Below, piece by piece: positions 1,541 through 54,946 of a DNA stretch of 55,030 nucleotides. Positions within the stretch are counted from its first letter, which is position 1; each line of letters opens with the position of its first letter. Under the pieces are notes generated by a model. The model did not search any database. It had not been told where the DNA came from and saw nothing but the letters and a program-made list of their open reading frames with translations. The position numbers and the translations under genes were made by a program. This DNA is from a bacterium (GTDB lineage Bacteria; Patescibacteriota; Minisyncoccia; 1-14-0-10-42-19). Where the stretch lies: positions 1-55,030 of the forward strand of contig JAUYHD010000011.1 in the NCBI GenBank assembly GCA_030690215.1, read 5' to 3'.

Positions 1541-1679
1541 CCCCGTAAGACAATATCGCATAATACGTCATGCGTTCGCCGCTCACTACACGCGCACTGA
1601 TTTGTTTTCTTGCTTTCCCAAAAATGTTGTTTTGTAAAATGACATATAAGAATGCATCATGCGATATTGCTCTACGGGG
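1541..1679 (+). mobile_element. Type A palindromic element, copy A1 (139 bp)
   Basis: CCCCGTAAGACAATATCGCAT...ATGCGATATTGCTCTACGGGG; TCAA on both sides (1537-1540, 1680-1683). Confidence 0.8.
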
Positions 1680-1684
1680 TCAAC

Positions 1685-1825
1685 CCCCGTTTGGCTAAAT
1701 CGAACCGTCTTCCTCGCTGCATCTACCAGCAAGTCTCGATGGCATACTCAACGGAACATTGCTTCTTCAATCATGAATGGCATTCCGTAAGACGTAGATG
1801 CGGCTTTCGATTTTGCCTAACGGGG
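1685..1825 (+). mobile_element. Type B palindromic element, copy B1 (141 bp)
   Basis: CCCCGTTTGGCTAAATCGAA...TTCGATTTTGCCTAACGGGG, TCAA on both sides. Confidence 0.8.
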
Positions 1826-5832: not shown

Positions 5833-5877
5833 GCCAATTTTTATTATGAGCGAAAACGAATAACTATAAAATTGCGC
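5833..5877. repeat. Start-codon-abutting inverted repeat (copy 1)
   Basis: GCCAATTTTTATTATGAGCGAAAACGAATAACTATAAAATTGCGC, directly before rpsH ATG. Confidence 0.6.
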
Positions 5878-6027
5878 CTATTCCTCGGCATATGTATACT
5901 TCGTGAAAATGCGGGATCTTCGCCCATTCAACTACTCGCTCGCGCTCGCAGGAATGGGCGGGGGTTTTGCAGTCGCTCGCGCCAAATGCGCATTACGCAT
6001 CTCGCGCGAGCGAGCAAATTCACTTTA
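5875..6027. repeat. ~153-bp intergenic repeat, copy 1
   Basis: Near-identical to 10112-10265; ends at the rpsN stop codon. Confidence 0.85.
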
Positions 6028-10111: not shown

Positions 10112-10265
10112 CGCCTATTCCTCGGCATATGTATACTTCGTGAACATGCGGGATCTTCGCCCATTCAACTACTCGCTCGCGCTCGCAGGAATGGGCGGGG
10201 GTTTTGCAATCGCTCGCGCCAAATGCGTTTTTACGCATCTCGCGCGAGCGAGCAAATTCACTTTA
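10112..10265. repeat. ~154-bp intergenic repeat, copy 2
   Basis: Near-identical to 5875-6027; ends at the rplB stop codon. Confidence 0.85.
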
Positions 10266-14886: not shown

Positions 14887-14915
14887 ATAATAACGGAGGG
14901 GTCAAAAGAAGTCAA
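14887..14915 (-). promoter_or_regulatory. Sigma-70-like promoter of tuf
   Basis: Minus strand TTGACT-17 nt-TATTAT; -35 directly abuts element A2. Confidence 0.65.
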
Positions 14916-15054
14916 CCCCGTAAGACAATATCATATAATAAGTCATGCGTTCGCCGCCAAAAGCACAAAAACCATTGTATTTTGTTGTTTTTCCGGGAAT
15001 ATTGTTTCGCATAATGACTTATAAGAATGCATCATATGATATTGCTCTACGGGG
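14916..15054 (+). mobile_element. Type A palindromic element, copy A2 (139 bp)
   Basis: CCCCGTAAGACAATATCATAT...ATATGATATTGCTCTACGGGG; TCAA on both sides. Confidence 0.8.
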
Positions 15055-15058
15055 TCAA

Positions 15059-15097
15059 CCCCGTTAGAGCGTTGCAAGGCCCGCTCATCTAACGGGG
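15059..15097 (+). mobile_element. Type C element, copy C2 (39 bp)
   Basis: CCCCGTTAGAGCGTTGCAAGGCCCGCTCATCTAACGGGG; TCAA on both sides. Confidence 0.75.
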
Positions 15098-15101
15098 TCA
15101 A

Positions 15102-15382
15102 CCCCGTTTGGCTAAATCGAAAGCTGTATCTACGTCTGACGGATACTGTATGTGGTTAAAGAAACAACGGTCCGTTGAGCATATTGTCGAAATTTGCTGG
15201 TAGATACAGCAAGCCCCGTTTGACACTATCACATGGTAAGTCATGCGTTCGCCGCTTTTATTATGTGTATAGTAGATTTCTTTTTCATTGTACATATATT
15301 GTCCACACAAGGACTTACAAGAATGCATTATGTGATAGTGTCTTACGGGGCAAGGAAGACGATTCGATTTTGCCTAACGGGG
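15102..15382 (-). mobile_element. Type B element, copy B2, interrupted by A3
   Basis: Reverse-complement alignable to B1 when 15214-15350 plus one 4-bp duplication are removed; TCAA on both sides. Confidence 0.75.
15214..15350 (+). mobile_element. Type A element, copy A3 (137 bp), nested in B2
   Basis: CAAG-CCCCGTTTGACACTATCACAT...ATGTGATAGTGTCTTACGGGG-CAAG; 4-bp TSD. Confidence 0.85.
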
Positions 15383-30525: not shown

Positions 30526-30664
30526 CCCCGTTAGACAATATCGCATAATACGTCATGCGTTCGTCGCCTATCACACATATATTGATTTGTTTTCTTGCTT
30601 TTTCGAAAATGTTGTTTTGCACAATGACGTATAAGAATGCATTATGCGATATTGCTATACGGGG
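30526..30664 (+). mobile_element. Type A element, copy A4 (139 bp)
   Basis: CAAA-CCCCGTTAGACAATATCGCAT...ATGCGATATTGCTATACGGGG-CAAA. Confidence 0.85.
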
Positions 30665-35301: not shown

Positions 35302-35771
35302 ACTATCGAACATTCATGAAAAAGTTTTTATCAAGGTCCCTTGCATAATAATGCTTGGGACTTTTTATTTTATCTTATTAATTTTAACTTATTAATACTT
35401 TGTGAAAAATACCGAGGAATAAAAAACCCATCCGGCAAGAATCAAGTCCCGATATACCGATGATTTCGTAACCACCCTAGAGCGTCCATACCACCCGCAC
35501 GGGCTAGCCTACGCCTTCTTTCCCGACGGTTTGGTCGGGGCTCCGACTTCAATATTTTGAATTTATAACAGTGCGTCGGAGCTTAAGAGGGAGCAGTCCC
35601 GATCCAGCTTTCCATTGTAGATAATTACGTGAATAGCGGGATCGAGGATCCTCGATATTGCGTCCGCCCTGGAGGGCTCGTCCGCCGTCTCCGCCGGCTG
35701 GCGGAGACGGCGGATTGCGATTTGCAATCGCGCGAAGCGCGAGCAAATCGGGAAAACCTACGACCTTCTCC

Positions 35772-35805
35772 TTTCCGCCATAGGCGGATCAGCCTCTGGC
35801 TGAAA
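35772..35805. repeat. Double-hairpin module, copy 1
   Basis: TTTCCGCCATAGGCGGATCAGCCTCTGGCTGAAA. Confidence 0.85.
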
Positions 35806-35836
35806 GGGGGGGATTTAACTTGAATTCAGTATTTCG

Positions 35837-35909
35837 TCCGCCCAGCAGGATTCGAACCTACGACCTTCTCCTTAAGAGGGAGCAGCTCTACCAACTGAGC
35901 TATGGGCGG
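35837..35909 (-). tRNA. tRNA-Lys(CTT)
   Basis: CCGCCCA/TGGGCGG acceptor, GCTCAGTTGGTAGAGC D arm, CTCC-CTCTTAA-GGAG, GTAGGTTCGAATCCTGC T arm. Confidence 0.92.
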
Positions 35910-35925
35910 ACGAAATATTGGATCA

Positions 35926-36171
35926 TCAATTATTTAACATTTCATCAAGATATTTTCTGCCGATGCCTGATTTCAAAAAATTTTCGCGTTTTCTCGCCTC
36001 TGTTTTATTATCACATCCTTCTTGATAAATTAATTCAAAGGGCCCATTTCTTTTGGTGAATTTACTCGCACCATAATTATGTTGCTTCAACCGCTCTTTA
36101 GGTAATAATTCTGTACTCCCAGTATAGCGCTTACCATTCCTTAAGCTTTTTAATACATAAACAAATGACAT
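35926..36171 (-). CDS. GIY-YIG nuclease family protein
   Basis: MSFVYVLKSLRNGKRYTGSTELLPKERLKQHN...TEARKREN. Confidence 0.85.
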   Translation of the reverse strand: MSFVYVLKSLRNGKRYTGSTELLPKERLKQHNYGASKFTKRNGPFELIYQEGCDNKTEARKRENFLKSGIGRKYLDEMLNN

Positions 36172-36193
36172 ATGTAAAGAAAATATCTTCTCC

Positions 36194-36227
36194 TTTCCGC
36201 CATAGGCGGATCAGCCTCTGGCTGAAA
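36194..36227. repeat. Double-hairpin module, copy 2
   Basis: Identical 34-mer to copy 1, in the anticodon-loop position of a tRNA-Lys 5' part. Confidence 0.85.
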
Positions 36228-36320
36228 GAGGGAGCTACTCTACCAACTGAGCTAAGGGCGGACGCAATATCGGGACTCTACTAATTCCGACGCTTAATTC
36301 GGGACTACTAGCGGAAAATA

Positions 36321-36802: not shown

Positions 36803-37288
36803 TTACGTATGCCTATCGGCAAGCACGAACGCACCAAACGAGTACGGCTTTACCGCGGCTTCAAATCCGTATCCTTTCACCATGCCCACAACAGCATCTA
36901 TTAAATCACGCGTCGGGCCATTCTCGCCTACATCCAAATGAACCGTCAAATTATTGTTCCAAAAAAATTCTTCTCCAAGTTTATCCTTAAGGGCGCTTCG
37001 CAATTCCTGGGTAAATACAATTGACCGCATCGTCTCCTTAAAAATTCTGTCCTGAAGCGTCCCGCATTTTTCGGGCAAAGAACGCGACCAAAAATATCTC
37101 CCTCCATTCCCTATGCGGTGCACCCCCACCGCCGTCACAAAACATACTTCTTTTTCGGCGCGAGAGTCGCTCCCTACCACAATGTGATAGCGTACATCAG
37201 GTTTTTGGCGGATATACGAAACAAGCTCTTCTATGAGCCCATCAAAAGTAAAGCTTCCTACACTATTATGAAAATGTTGGTGAGTCAT
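36803..37288 (-). CDS. YkuK-like (DUF458) RNase H-fold protein
   Basis: YHIVVGSDSRAEKEVCFVTAVGVHRIGNGGRYFW...HLDVGENGPTRDLI. Confidence 0.8.
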   Translation of the reverse strand: MTHQHFHNSVGSFTFDGLIEELVSYIRQKPDVRYHIVVGSDSRAEKEVCFVTAVGVHRIGNGGRYFWSRSLPEKCGTLQDRIFKETMRSIVFTQELRSALKDKLGEEFFWNNNLTVHLDVGENGPTRDLIDAVVGMVKGYGFEAAVKPYSFGAFVLADRHT

Positions 37289-37289
37289 A

Positions 37290-37434
37290 CCCCGTTAGGC
37301 TAAATCGAAAAACGTCTTTCTTACAAAACCGCAGAAGATATTTCGATGTTTACCTTTGTTTGTACTTTTAATATTCATACTTTGTATTACCCCGCAAGAC
37401 GTAAAGGTTTTGCTTTCGATTTTGCCATACGGGG
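37290..37434 (+). mobile_element. Type B element, copy B3 (145 bp)
   Basis: CATA-CCCCGTTAGGCTAAATCGAAA...TTTCGATTTTGCCATACGGGG-CATG. Confidence 0.8.
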
Positions 37435-48497: not shown

Positions 48498-49670
48498 CTA
48501 GGGCAGAAAAGCTTTAAACCAGCGCCACAAAAGCGAACCCCCTTTTTCAGAAATGCCTGCAAAAATACCGCGCTTGTTTCTTTCCTCTGATTCATACGCC
48601 AGCAAACAAAGCCCTGTCACTGCCGCAAAGCGCGGGTCAAACTCTTCTGCAAGACCCGATTCTTCTATCGTACGCGCGACTTCAACGGGTAATCGAAGCG
48701 CGCTCCGTCCCATTGTTTCAATATTGAACAAATGCGCCCCTCCGCCCGCAAGCACAACACCTCCCGGCAAAAGACCATCCCTATTAATTTTCTTTAAATG
48801 AGCGCCGACAGATTCAAATATGTCCCCCACGCGCGCGGCAATAATTTCTTCAATCTGTTTTTTATTTGAACCGCGAAACTGCCTATATTCTTGCTTTTGG
48901 CGTTCTGCCTCATCAAGCCCGATACGAAGACCGATTGCGATATCGTGGGTAATCGCTTGCGCGCCGATAGGAAATGCTTTGACCGATACCGGCAAGCCCT
49001 CTTCAAAGATCGCCGAACTTACGGTCCCCGCACCAATATCAAGCGTCATCACGCCAACTTCTTTTTTGTGGTTAGAAAGAATGGCGCGCGAAACAGCCAA
49101 AGGAGAAGCAACAACATCATCTACCGCTACTCCCACGCGCTCGGCGCACGCCGCAATGTGTTCTACGTGCTGGGACAGAGCCGTGATAAATATTGTTTCT
49201 GCTTCAAGGCGAGAGCCGGTAATGCCTACGGGGTTTCGGGTTACCAAATCTTTATCAACCCGAAATAAAAGCGGAAACCGATGAAGAATTTCCTTGTTAT
49301 GATGAGGAACAATGCTTGCGTAGCTCGCGTCTAACACCCGGCTCACATCGCGCTCGCTGATATCTCCTCCATTTGCGTATGGCAACACAATAGACCCGCG
49401 CGCTATCACCGAATCCAAGCTTGTCCCCCCATACGAAAAAAAGGCAGATGAAACCTTCACTCCTGCCATTTTTGTCGCTTGAAAAAGAGATTTTTTAAGC
49501 TGTAATGCTACCGCATCAACGTCTATAATGTCTCCTCGCCTAACGCCTTCGGATCGTACATCGCCAACACCCCGAATCTGCATGCGTCCTGTTGCGTCAT
49601 CCCACTCTGTAATCATCGTTTGGATGCTTGAAACTCCGATATCAATTCCTGTAGCAATGTGACGAGTCAT
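48498..49670 (-). CDS. ftsA: Cell division protein FtsA
   Basis: ATGIDIGVSSIQTMI, VGVMTLDIGAGTVSSAIFEEG, GGVVLAGGGAHLFNIE. Confidence 0.93.
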   Translation of the reverse strand: MTRHIATGIDIGVSSIQTMITEWDDATGRMQIRGVGDVRSEGVRRGDIIDVDAVALQLKKSLFQATKMAGVKVSSAFFSYGGTSLDSVIARGSIVLPYANGGDISERDVSRVLDASYASIVPHHNKEILHRFPLLFRVDKDLVTRNPVGITGSRLEAETIFITALSQHVEHIAACAERVGVAVDDVVASPLAVSRAILSNHKKEVGVMTLDIGAGTVSSAIFEEGLPVSVKAFPIGAQAITHDIAIGLRIGLDEAERQKQEYRQFRGSNKKQIEEIIAARVGDIFESVGAHLKKINRDGLLPGGVVLAGGGAHLFNIETMGRSALRLPVEVARTIEESGLAEEFDPRFAAVTGLCLLAYESEERNKRGIFAGISEKGGSLLWRWFKAFLP

Positions 49671-49671
49671 A

Positions 49672-49816
49672 CCCCGTTAGGCTACATCGAAAAACGTCTT
49701 CCTTGCAAAACCGCAGAATATATTTCGATGTTCACCCTTTATTGTACTTTTACTAATAATACTTTATGTTACCCCGTAAGACGTAAAGGTTTTGCTTTCG
49801 ATGTTGCCATACGGGG
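49672..49816 (+). mobile_element. Type B element, copy B4 (145 bp)
   Basis: CATA-CCCCGTTAGGCTACATCGAAA...TTTCGATGTTGCCATACGGGG-CATA. Confidence 0.85.
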
Positions 49817-51243: not shown

Positions 51244-51607
51244 GCCAAAAATTAAGGATTACCGCTTTTCACTAATAATTACTTTATATTATAGCCGAGC
51301 GGGATGACTATAATTTTTGAGCACCCCCTCCTTTTAGACGCTATCAGCACTTCGACTGATTCGCTTGCGGAGACGCCCCCATGAACTTTTGAACTTTTTT
51401 AATTGCCGTTCCCTATCCCGCGCGTCCTTCTCGTTTTGATATGCTTCATACTATACGATGCCTCTTATATCTTTTTCTCTTGTATGCGTTTTTGCTCGCG
51501 CGCGCAAATCTTTGGTATATCCCGTATATAAATCCCCATTGGGCAGTTTTGCAAGATATACATAATACATAGCGCTCAAAAGGAGGGGGTGGAGGTTCTG
51601 CCGCCAC

Positions 51608-53625: not shown

Positions 53626-54024
53626 CTAATTTTTCTTTTTAAGGGTTAATACGCTGGAGCCCAACATGCGGGATATTTCTTCAACCTCATTAAGCAACGT
53701 TCTTATTTTTTCTTTATCTGCGTCAGTCGCATCCCTCAATAACCCCAACCAATATTTTGTTTCGTTCGCTGATTTCAATGCGATGATATAAAATTTTATA
53801 AAATCTTTTTTAGAGCTGGACGATTTAGCTTCAACAATATTAGCGCCGATTGAGGTTGCGGAACGCAGTAATTGATCGGCGATGATCCAGTAGGTACGTT
53901 TTTGGGGTAATATTTCTAAAAATTTAATTACATCTATGGAGAAATAATAACAACGATACCGTAATTCGGTTTTACGCTTTGCGTTTTGGTTTTGAGTTTT
54001 TAGATTTGAGCTTTGCGTTAACAT
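53626..54024 (-). CDS. Four-helix-bundle (S23/TIGR02436-like) protein
   Basis: IADQLLRSATSIGANIVEAKSSSSKKDFIKFYIIALKSANETKYWLGLL; start uncertain. Confidence 0.82.
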   Translation of the reverse strand: MLTQSSNLKTQNQNAKRKTELRYRCYYFSIDVIKFLEILPQKRTYWIIADQLLRSATSIGANIVEAKSSSSKKDFIKFYIIALKSANETKYWLGLLRDATDADKEKIRTLLNEVEEISRMLGSSVLTLKKKN

Positions 54025-54644: not shown

Positions 54645-54946
54645 ATACTATAGCTAAAAACTCAAATCTAAAAACTCAAAACCAAAACGCAAAGCGTAAA
54701 ACCGAATTGAAACATCGTTGTATAAGTTTTGGGTTTTAGCACTGCGGTTTTCCCTCCGAAGGAAAATTCGCCTTCGGAGGAAACTTTTGAGTTTTGAGTT
54801 TTGAGTTTTGACTTTTGAGTTTTGAGTTTTGAGTTTTGAGTTTGTATGTAACCACCATACCACGAAAAAAGTCCCCGAGCAACAAAAAGCGGTAATGTGC
54901 AAGCACATATGGCGGTTTTCCCTACAATGGGGAAATGGCTATACAT

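Follow-up and report, generated by a model that had tools for sequence, protein, structure and literature searches.

MITE-like palindromic insertions in a Patescibacteria genome and their probable link to miniature elements encoding only a GIY-YIG nuclease

The window that we analyzed is a stretch of 55,030 nucleotides, contig C30 of a Patescibacteria genome (G000; 1,019,534 bases in 38 contigs). It contains 11 palindromic elements of three types (A, B, and C) that carry CCCC...GGGG caps. One array holds A1 (1541..1679, plus strand, 139 bp), which has TCAA on its left and right, along with B1 (1685..1825, plus, 141 bp) and C1 (1830..1869, plus), whose right cap is mutated and whose end is approximate. 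Another array, at 14916-15382, consists of A2 (14916..15054, plus, 139 bp), C2 (15059..15097, plus, 39 bp), and B2 (15102..15382, plus), the last two with TCAA on either side. B2 is split by a nested copy, A3 (15214..15350, plus, 137 bp), which has CAAG on either side. Elsewhere, C3 (23351..23391, plus) and A4 (30526..30664, plus, 139 bp) each lie between two copies of CAAA. The remaining elements are on the minus strand and occupy start codons (TATG): B3 (37290..37434) that of a 161-codon open reading frame (ORF) at 36803-37288 (minus), and B4 (49672..49816) that of a 390-codon FtsA/PilM-like ORF at 48498-49670 (minus). The window also contains a decayed GIY-YIG element of another family (51323..51592, minus), with one in-frame TAG in its ORF and inverted repeats CACCCCCTCCTTTTGAGCGC and GCGTCTAAAAGGAGGGGGTG. 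An Rfam search of the window returned two tRNAs and nothing else. Two other repeats were observed: a 116-bp direct repeat (5875-5990 and 10112-10227; 98% identical, 4.2 kb apart) that is unrelated to the CCCC elements, and a 65-nt inverted repeat (53950-54014 and 54657-54721) with 91% complementary arms and 642 nt between them.

Several lines of evidence characterize the palindromic elements as real and repeated units. Types A, B, and C all have terminal inverted repeats, and the end pattern had 79 + 71 matches, compared with 18 + 18 for a reversed control pattern. Across the 1.02 Mb of this genome, about 20 copies, full or partial, were found with the A query, and some 45 places matched the B query. 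In the 269 kb that were read for paired elements, 37 of 55 pairs were flanked by a perfect 4-bp duplication, whereas 1,000 shuffles of the right flanks gave 6.6 such pairs on average and never more than 16. Several of the remaining pairs had 5-bp or one-mismatch duplications (e.g., TAAAG, TTTGA, and CATA/CATG). Because the duplications differ in sequence (CATA, TCAA/TTGA, CAAG/CTTG, CAAA, TTTA, CACA, TACG, and TGTG), they do not belong to the element itself. The A2 strand folds strongly relative to dinucleotide shuffles (z = -7.4). Type A was absent from the same-genus and class relatives that we searched; the sole match, in the same-genus genome G002, was weak (E = 3.3e-4), covered the interior only, and is probably due to chance.

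Comparison with G002 provided direct evidence of insertion with target duplication. This genome belongs to a species of the same genus, and its syntenic contig has ~73-88% nucleotide identity to the window in most aligned blocks. We found precise empty sites, in which the 4-mer occurs once, for B3, B4, C3, and the whole array at 14916-15382. At B4, the junction reads GTCATA, then CCCC...GGGG, then CATACATTCAGTATA in the window and GCCATATACTTTAGTATA in G002. At B3, the element lies between GTCATA and CATGTATTTCTATTATAAAAG, where G002 has GTCATATACTTCTATTATAAAAG; at C3, it lies between GGTCAAA and CAAACAGGAG, where G002 has GGTCAAATAGGAG. The array lies between AAGTCAA and TCAAGCATCC, where G002 has AAGTCAAGCGCC; its left edge, that of A2, is where synteny stops (the aligned block ends at 14915), and the right side rests on few bases. 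These four loci meet the MITE criterion of a target-site duplication confirmed by an empty site. For A4, the left flank alone aligns, and its AAATCAA occurs once in G002. The decayed GIY-YIG element at 51323-51592 is also missing at the syntenic place in G002, which has 27 bp compared with 394 bp here. A preliminary description, made without database searches, had listed the positions of the A, B, and C copies, the lengths of the A copies, and flanking duplications, including CATA/CATG at B3, and all of these held. Its reading of the copies as mobile, non-autonomous, and MITE-like with 4-bp duplications is supported, with empty sites now added. It had stated that orthologous loci lacking the element while keeping both 4-mers would refute that reading; G002 has a single 4-mer, and the claim stands. 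We conclude that A, B, and C are mobile, MITE-like DNA insertions.

The preliminary description had further taken the splitting of B2 by A3 as a direct footprint of transposition. The nesting is real, with its CAAG (= CTTG) duplication, but the composite itself has been copied to several sites and is not unique to this locus. Composites of the form B[A]B, again with a CTTG/CAAG duplication, also occur on other contigs of the genome (C6:151-440, C8:50793-51143, and C9:6214-6527), and another CAAG-flanked A adjoins B sequence at C18:24218-24357. Since the same composite and duplication recur at several sites, a single insertion of A into B, followed by movement of the composite as a unit, is the likely history.

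No family had been recognized in the preliminary description. We have now found a likely coding partner with B ends, outside the window. Three 299-bp elements, each between two copies of CATA, lie at C5:6-304, C8:50490-50788, and C18:55560-55858, with 283-291 of 299 positions identical among them. Each consists of a single GIY-YIG nuclease ORF (~95 residues) that spans from inverted repeat to inverted repeat. In the direction of the ORF, the left end reads TATG/CCCCGT-ATG-GCA and the right end GCC-TAA-CGGGG/TATG, so that the start and stop codons fall within the terminal repeats and the duplication adds a further start codon. The two ends of such a 299-bp copy differ from each other, and B3 and B4 reproduce each of them at 17 of 17 terminal positions (for B4, in comparison with C5:6-304). 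Type B thus meets the criterion of sharing its ends with a coding element of the same genome. The criterion of a known transposase in that partner is not met, as the partner encodes the GIY-YIG protein only. The interior of B differs from the coding element; agreement is limited to the terminal 17 bp, so an origin of B by simple loss of the middle of a 299-bp element has not been shown.

Types A and C have no coding copy in this genome, and a coding partner for them here is inferred only from the kind of ends they carry. We did not find a coding copy with A ends in the genome. A 434-bp A-ended element (C14:6212-6645) was considered as an A-type GIY-YIG copy and rejected, as its translation contained no GIY-YIG gene; it is an A with other insertions, and the sum of 299 + 131 + 4 bp is coincidental. 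The C ends resemble those of the CCCGTTAGA family, which occurs as coding copies in another genome (G003) and others. In all, the genome has 17 GIY-YIG genes above the cutoff (PF01541), one of them a 440-aa UvrC-like frame. No PF01609 (DDE_Tnp_1) gene was found, in a transposase search limited to PF01609 and PF01797 and to an assembly that is 96% complete.

The protein of the coding elements matches PF01541, and its closest solved relatives are the UPF0213 proteins 1zg2 and 1ywl, followed by Slx1 and I-TevI. The active-site positions that define the GIY-YIG family are invariant (Y5, Y16, G18, R26, H30, and E62; numbering of alignment A2). An AlphaFold2 model (mean pLDDT 87.5, pTM 0.76) had its best fold matches among UPF0213 and Slx1, although the top match was weak (1zg2, E = 1.1e-3). 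For same-genome copies located at different genes, dN/dS was 0.034 and 0.045, and the medians in two families were 0.18 and 0.16. This purifying selection, shown by sequence, means that the protein has been kept functional while the element moves.

To describe how widely such elements occur, we examined 100 GIY-YIG ORFs from this genome and relatives of its class. Flanking inverted repeats scored ≥28 in 36 of them, compared with 0.39% of 3,843 mismatched left/right flank pairs and 1.0% of 582 shifted windows. Most of the repeat-bracketed elements were 278-320 bp long. The other 64 ORFs lacked a clear inverted repeat; these could be decayed copies, housekeeping genes, or genes of another kind. 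We also scanned a collection of 85,000 genomes using the protein alone, with a five-member set from the ATG family as the query (a 20-member alignment was too diverse), and obtained 56 named loci. Clear ends, often with duplications, were found in Niyogi-, Portnoy-, Terry-, Yanofsky-, Uhr-, and other Patescibacteria. The related end class (A)CCCTGT[GT]AAATA occurred in Bacteroidota, Thermodesulfobacteriota, and Elusimicrobiota, and its duplications in Bacteroidota were TAAA in Ancylomarina and TCAA in both Psychroflexus aurantiacus and Algibacter. Omnitrophota had the CCCGTTAGA end class. A tblastn search of viral contigs found no relative. When five end classes were placed on a protein tree built from a 66-column core, they required four changes, the minimum possible, compared with 28.7 for shuffled labels. 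Since the gene and the ends lie on one unit, this congruent history shows that they have traveled together and does not show recognition of the ends by the protein.

Five loci from the Bacteroidota (L288, L289, L297, L304, and L305) belong to a second GIY-YIG subfamily, most with an LYIGVT or YIGVT motif. They have long REP-like inverted repeats, such as GTCAACCTGAACTTGTTTC or GTCATTCCTGCGCAGGCAGGAATC, and measure 350-406 bp overall. This subfamily may represent another mobile kind of GIY-YIG gene.

An ATG is usually part of the duplication in the CCC(A/C/G)GTA and CCCGTTAGA families, and in 30 of 32 such cases the right-hand copy opened a frame of at least 100 codons, compared with 14.7% of control ATGs. 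Judged by eye, the downstream N-termini are housekeeping-like and include what we take to be RuvB, adenylate kinase, an IleRS-like protein, and peptidyl-tRNA hydrolase. Elements of the CCCGTTAGA family begin their nuclease ORF at the left ATGA, and the right copy of ATGA contributes the TGA stop of that ORF as well as the ATG of the host gene. Besides B3 and B4, three other B copies in this genome precede ORFs of 253, 408, and 489 codons. A different site is used by elements ending in CCCCTCAC, all four of which lie at the 5' end of an intact tRNA gene (three Ala, one Val); this family has a 7-bp duplication, and the tRNA is left intact in the clearest cases. By sequence, families of GIY-YIG elements target start codons and tRNA 5' ends.

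Other GIY-YIG ORFs were observed at RNA genes. Within the window, at 35765-36273, a GIY-YIG ORF (core 35968-36168, minus strand) lies between partial and intact copies of tRNA-Lys, with the hairpin CTTTCAGCCAGAGGCTGATCCGCCTATGGCGGAAAGG repeated on either side; the same layout occurs at C20:8002. Its ends are unlike the CCCC class, and it is absent from G002. Another ORF of this genome (L123, C6:52437) lies inside the 16S rRNA gene; the counterpart in G002 is empty, and a duplication could not be defined. A 16S insertion in G003 (L219, G003:C4:28912) falls in the same region, between CTGCTTTT and GGGCTTGCTAAC motifs. The two hosts represent two genera of one family, and the ends of the two insertions differ.

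We propose that A, B, and C are non-autonomous riders of a minimal transposon whose sole protein is a GIY-YIG nuclease, and we regard this as likely. The sequences show mobility as a unit, the ends and target duplications, the empty sites, and the architecture of the ORF. That the GIY-YIG protein is the mobilizing enzyme is inferred, as is every chemical step, and no activity has been shown. In the proposed mechanism, a full element of ~280-320 bp would comprise two short inverted repeats beginning (C)CCN-GT around one ORF, which would encode a single-domain GIY-YIG nuclease of ~80-100 residues, with start and stop codons in or touching the repeats. An element residing on a start codon would have its nuclease translated from the signals of the host gene. 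The nuclease would recognize its own palindromic ends, either as duplex or as extruded hairpin, together with a short target (ATG, TATG, ATGA, TCAA, CAAG, or the 5' end of a tRNA gene). It would then cut or make staggered nicks at the ends and target, the element would be inserted, and gap repair would leave a duplication of 3-7 bp. Short gene-less copies with matching ends would be moved in trans. Insertion at an ATG would duplicate it, giving the element ORF a start codon while leaving one to the host gene; because the host gene retains its ATG, insertion into essential genes would be harmless.

A bolder reading is that these elements form a new class of DNA transposon, ~300 bp in length, with a single-domain GIY-YIG nuclease as the only mobilizer. 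Its families would occupy safe sites, either start codons (ATG, TATG, or ATGA), where they duplicate the ATG and borrow host translation, or tRNA 5' ends, and would spawn MITEs that are mobilized in trans. We consider this reading more likely than not. Counting against the nuclease as mobilizer, only two transposase families were searched for, in an incomplete assembly, and another mobilizer is not excluded. Moreover, a protein of ~95 residues without a separate DNA-binding domain is not known to act alone as a transposase.

The alternative that survives best is that A, B, and C are conventional MITEs belonging to a DDE insertion sequence that the genome no longer has or that the assembly lacks, with the GIY-YIG gene as picked-up cargo. 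Perfect inverted repeats and constant 4-bp duplications do resemble DDE chemistry, and the genome was searched for only one DDE family (PF01609). However, GIY-YIG is the sole gene between such ends in several phyla and five end classes, the ends and the ORF are fused, the duplication providing a start or stop codon, and cargo would hardly remain under a dN/dS of 0.03-0.2. We consider this alternative unlikely.

Less plausible still is the view that the elements are REP/REPIN-like palindromes moved by RAYT (Y1, IS200/IS605-type) transposases. In its favor, the elements are palindromic and mostly intergenic, and the genome contains two Y1_Tnp (RAYT-like) genes (L162, C15:74967; L163, C11:6475). 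Yet each of these genes is bracketed by its own, different, near-perfect palindromes (TGTGCAAGACCCGGTCTTGCACA and ACTAAACACCGAGTGTTTAGTA, respectively) without CCCC caps, and the ends of the CCCC elements do not match the palindromes that flank the Y1_Tnp genes. Y1 enzymes leave no target duplication, whereas the empty sites show a true one, contrary to what is required of an IS200/IS605-type element. We judge this explanation very improbable.

Another explanation that we consider very improbable is homing, in which stand-alone endonuclease genes would invade the matching site of relatives that lack them through repair of double-strand breaks. GIY-YIG nucleases are a homing family, and tRNA and 16S rRNA sites are occupied. 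But homing requires flanking homology and leaves no duplication, whereas the copies described here lie at many unrelated loci and have inverted repeats, 3-7 bp duplications, and gene-less forms. The expectation of homology-based spread without terminal repeats or duplication is not met, and for the CCCC class it is contradicted. Finally, conserved structured regulatory RNAs at gene starts, as suggested by strong folding and start-codon placement, are all but ruled out: the empty sites are precise, and the insertions have duplications, nest, and are absent from same-genus genomes. The empty sites refute such an origin, although later regulatory use is possible.

If the reading of a GIY-YIG transposon is correct, this nuclease would constitute a further class of transposon enzyme, in a nearly minimal autonomous element. 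To our knowledge, no prokaryotic transposon uses an enzyme other than the DDE, HUH, tyrosine, serine, or Cas1-type. Such an element would also account for the many small GIY-YIG ORFs seen in Patescibacteria and in other phyla. Targeting of start codons with duplication of the ATG would be a simple way to reside harmlessly in essential genes and might serve as an insertion tool. We found no description of GIY-YIG transposons in the open-access literature that we searched, which included no preprints and few subscription papers, and from that search we infer that the class appears to be undescribed.

The elements share traits with several known systems. Like prokaryotic MITEs (MITEAba12, Correia, and RUP), they are short, have inverted terminal repeats and target duplications, lack an ORF, reach high copy numbers, and nest. 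Known MITEs, however, borrow the DDE transposase of a named IS family, whereas the coding copies that share ends with the present elements encode a GIY-YIG nuclease. The REPIN/RAYT system likewise combines palindromic intergenic repeats with the gene of a small single-domain enzyme, but that enzyme is of the HUH (Y1) type, the tags are of the GTAG/CGTC type, and there is no target duplication; this genome contains both a RAYT-like and a CCCC/GIY-YIG system, each with palindromes of its own. GIY-YIG homing endonucleases and the seg genes of T4 have the same catalytic domain and insert at conserved sites, yet they lack inverted repeats and duplications, rely on homology-directed repair, and usually have an extra DNA-binding domain. 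The UPF0213/YhbQ-type GIY-YIG proteins (1zg2 and 1ywl) are similar in length and fold, but they are not known to be mobile, and no flanking repeats have been described for them. Penelope-like retroelements and Tsy transposons are mobile and encode a GIY-YIG domain. In Penelope-like elements, however, that domain serves a reverse transcriptase, and the Tsy nuclease is merely an accessory, and a dispensable one, to a tyrosine recombinase (PMC10293859). The rRNA genes of CPR bacteria also contain unclassified insertions (PMC11270868), including GIY-YIG ORFs that do not lie in introns and short ORF-less inserts of <200 bp. Those unexplained inserts were not recognized there as a transposon and its non-autonomous copies; we propose that link here, and elements of the kind described in this study, if the reading holds, are a possible origin for them.
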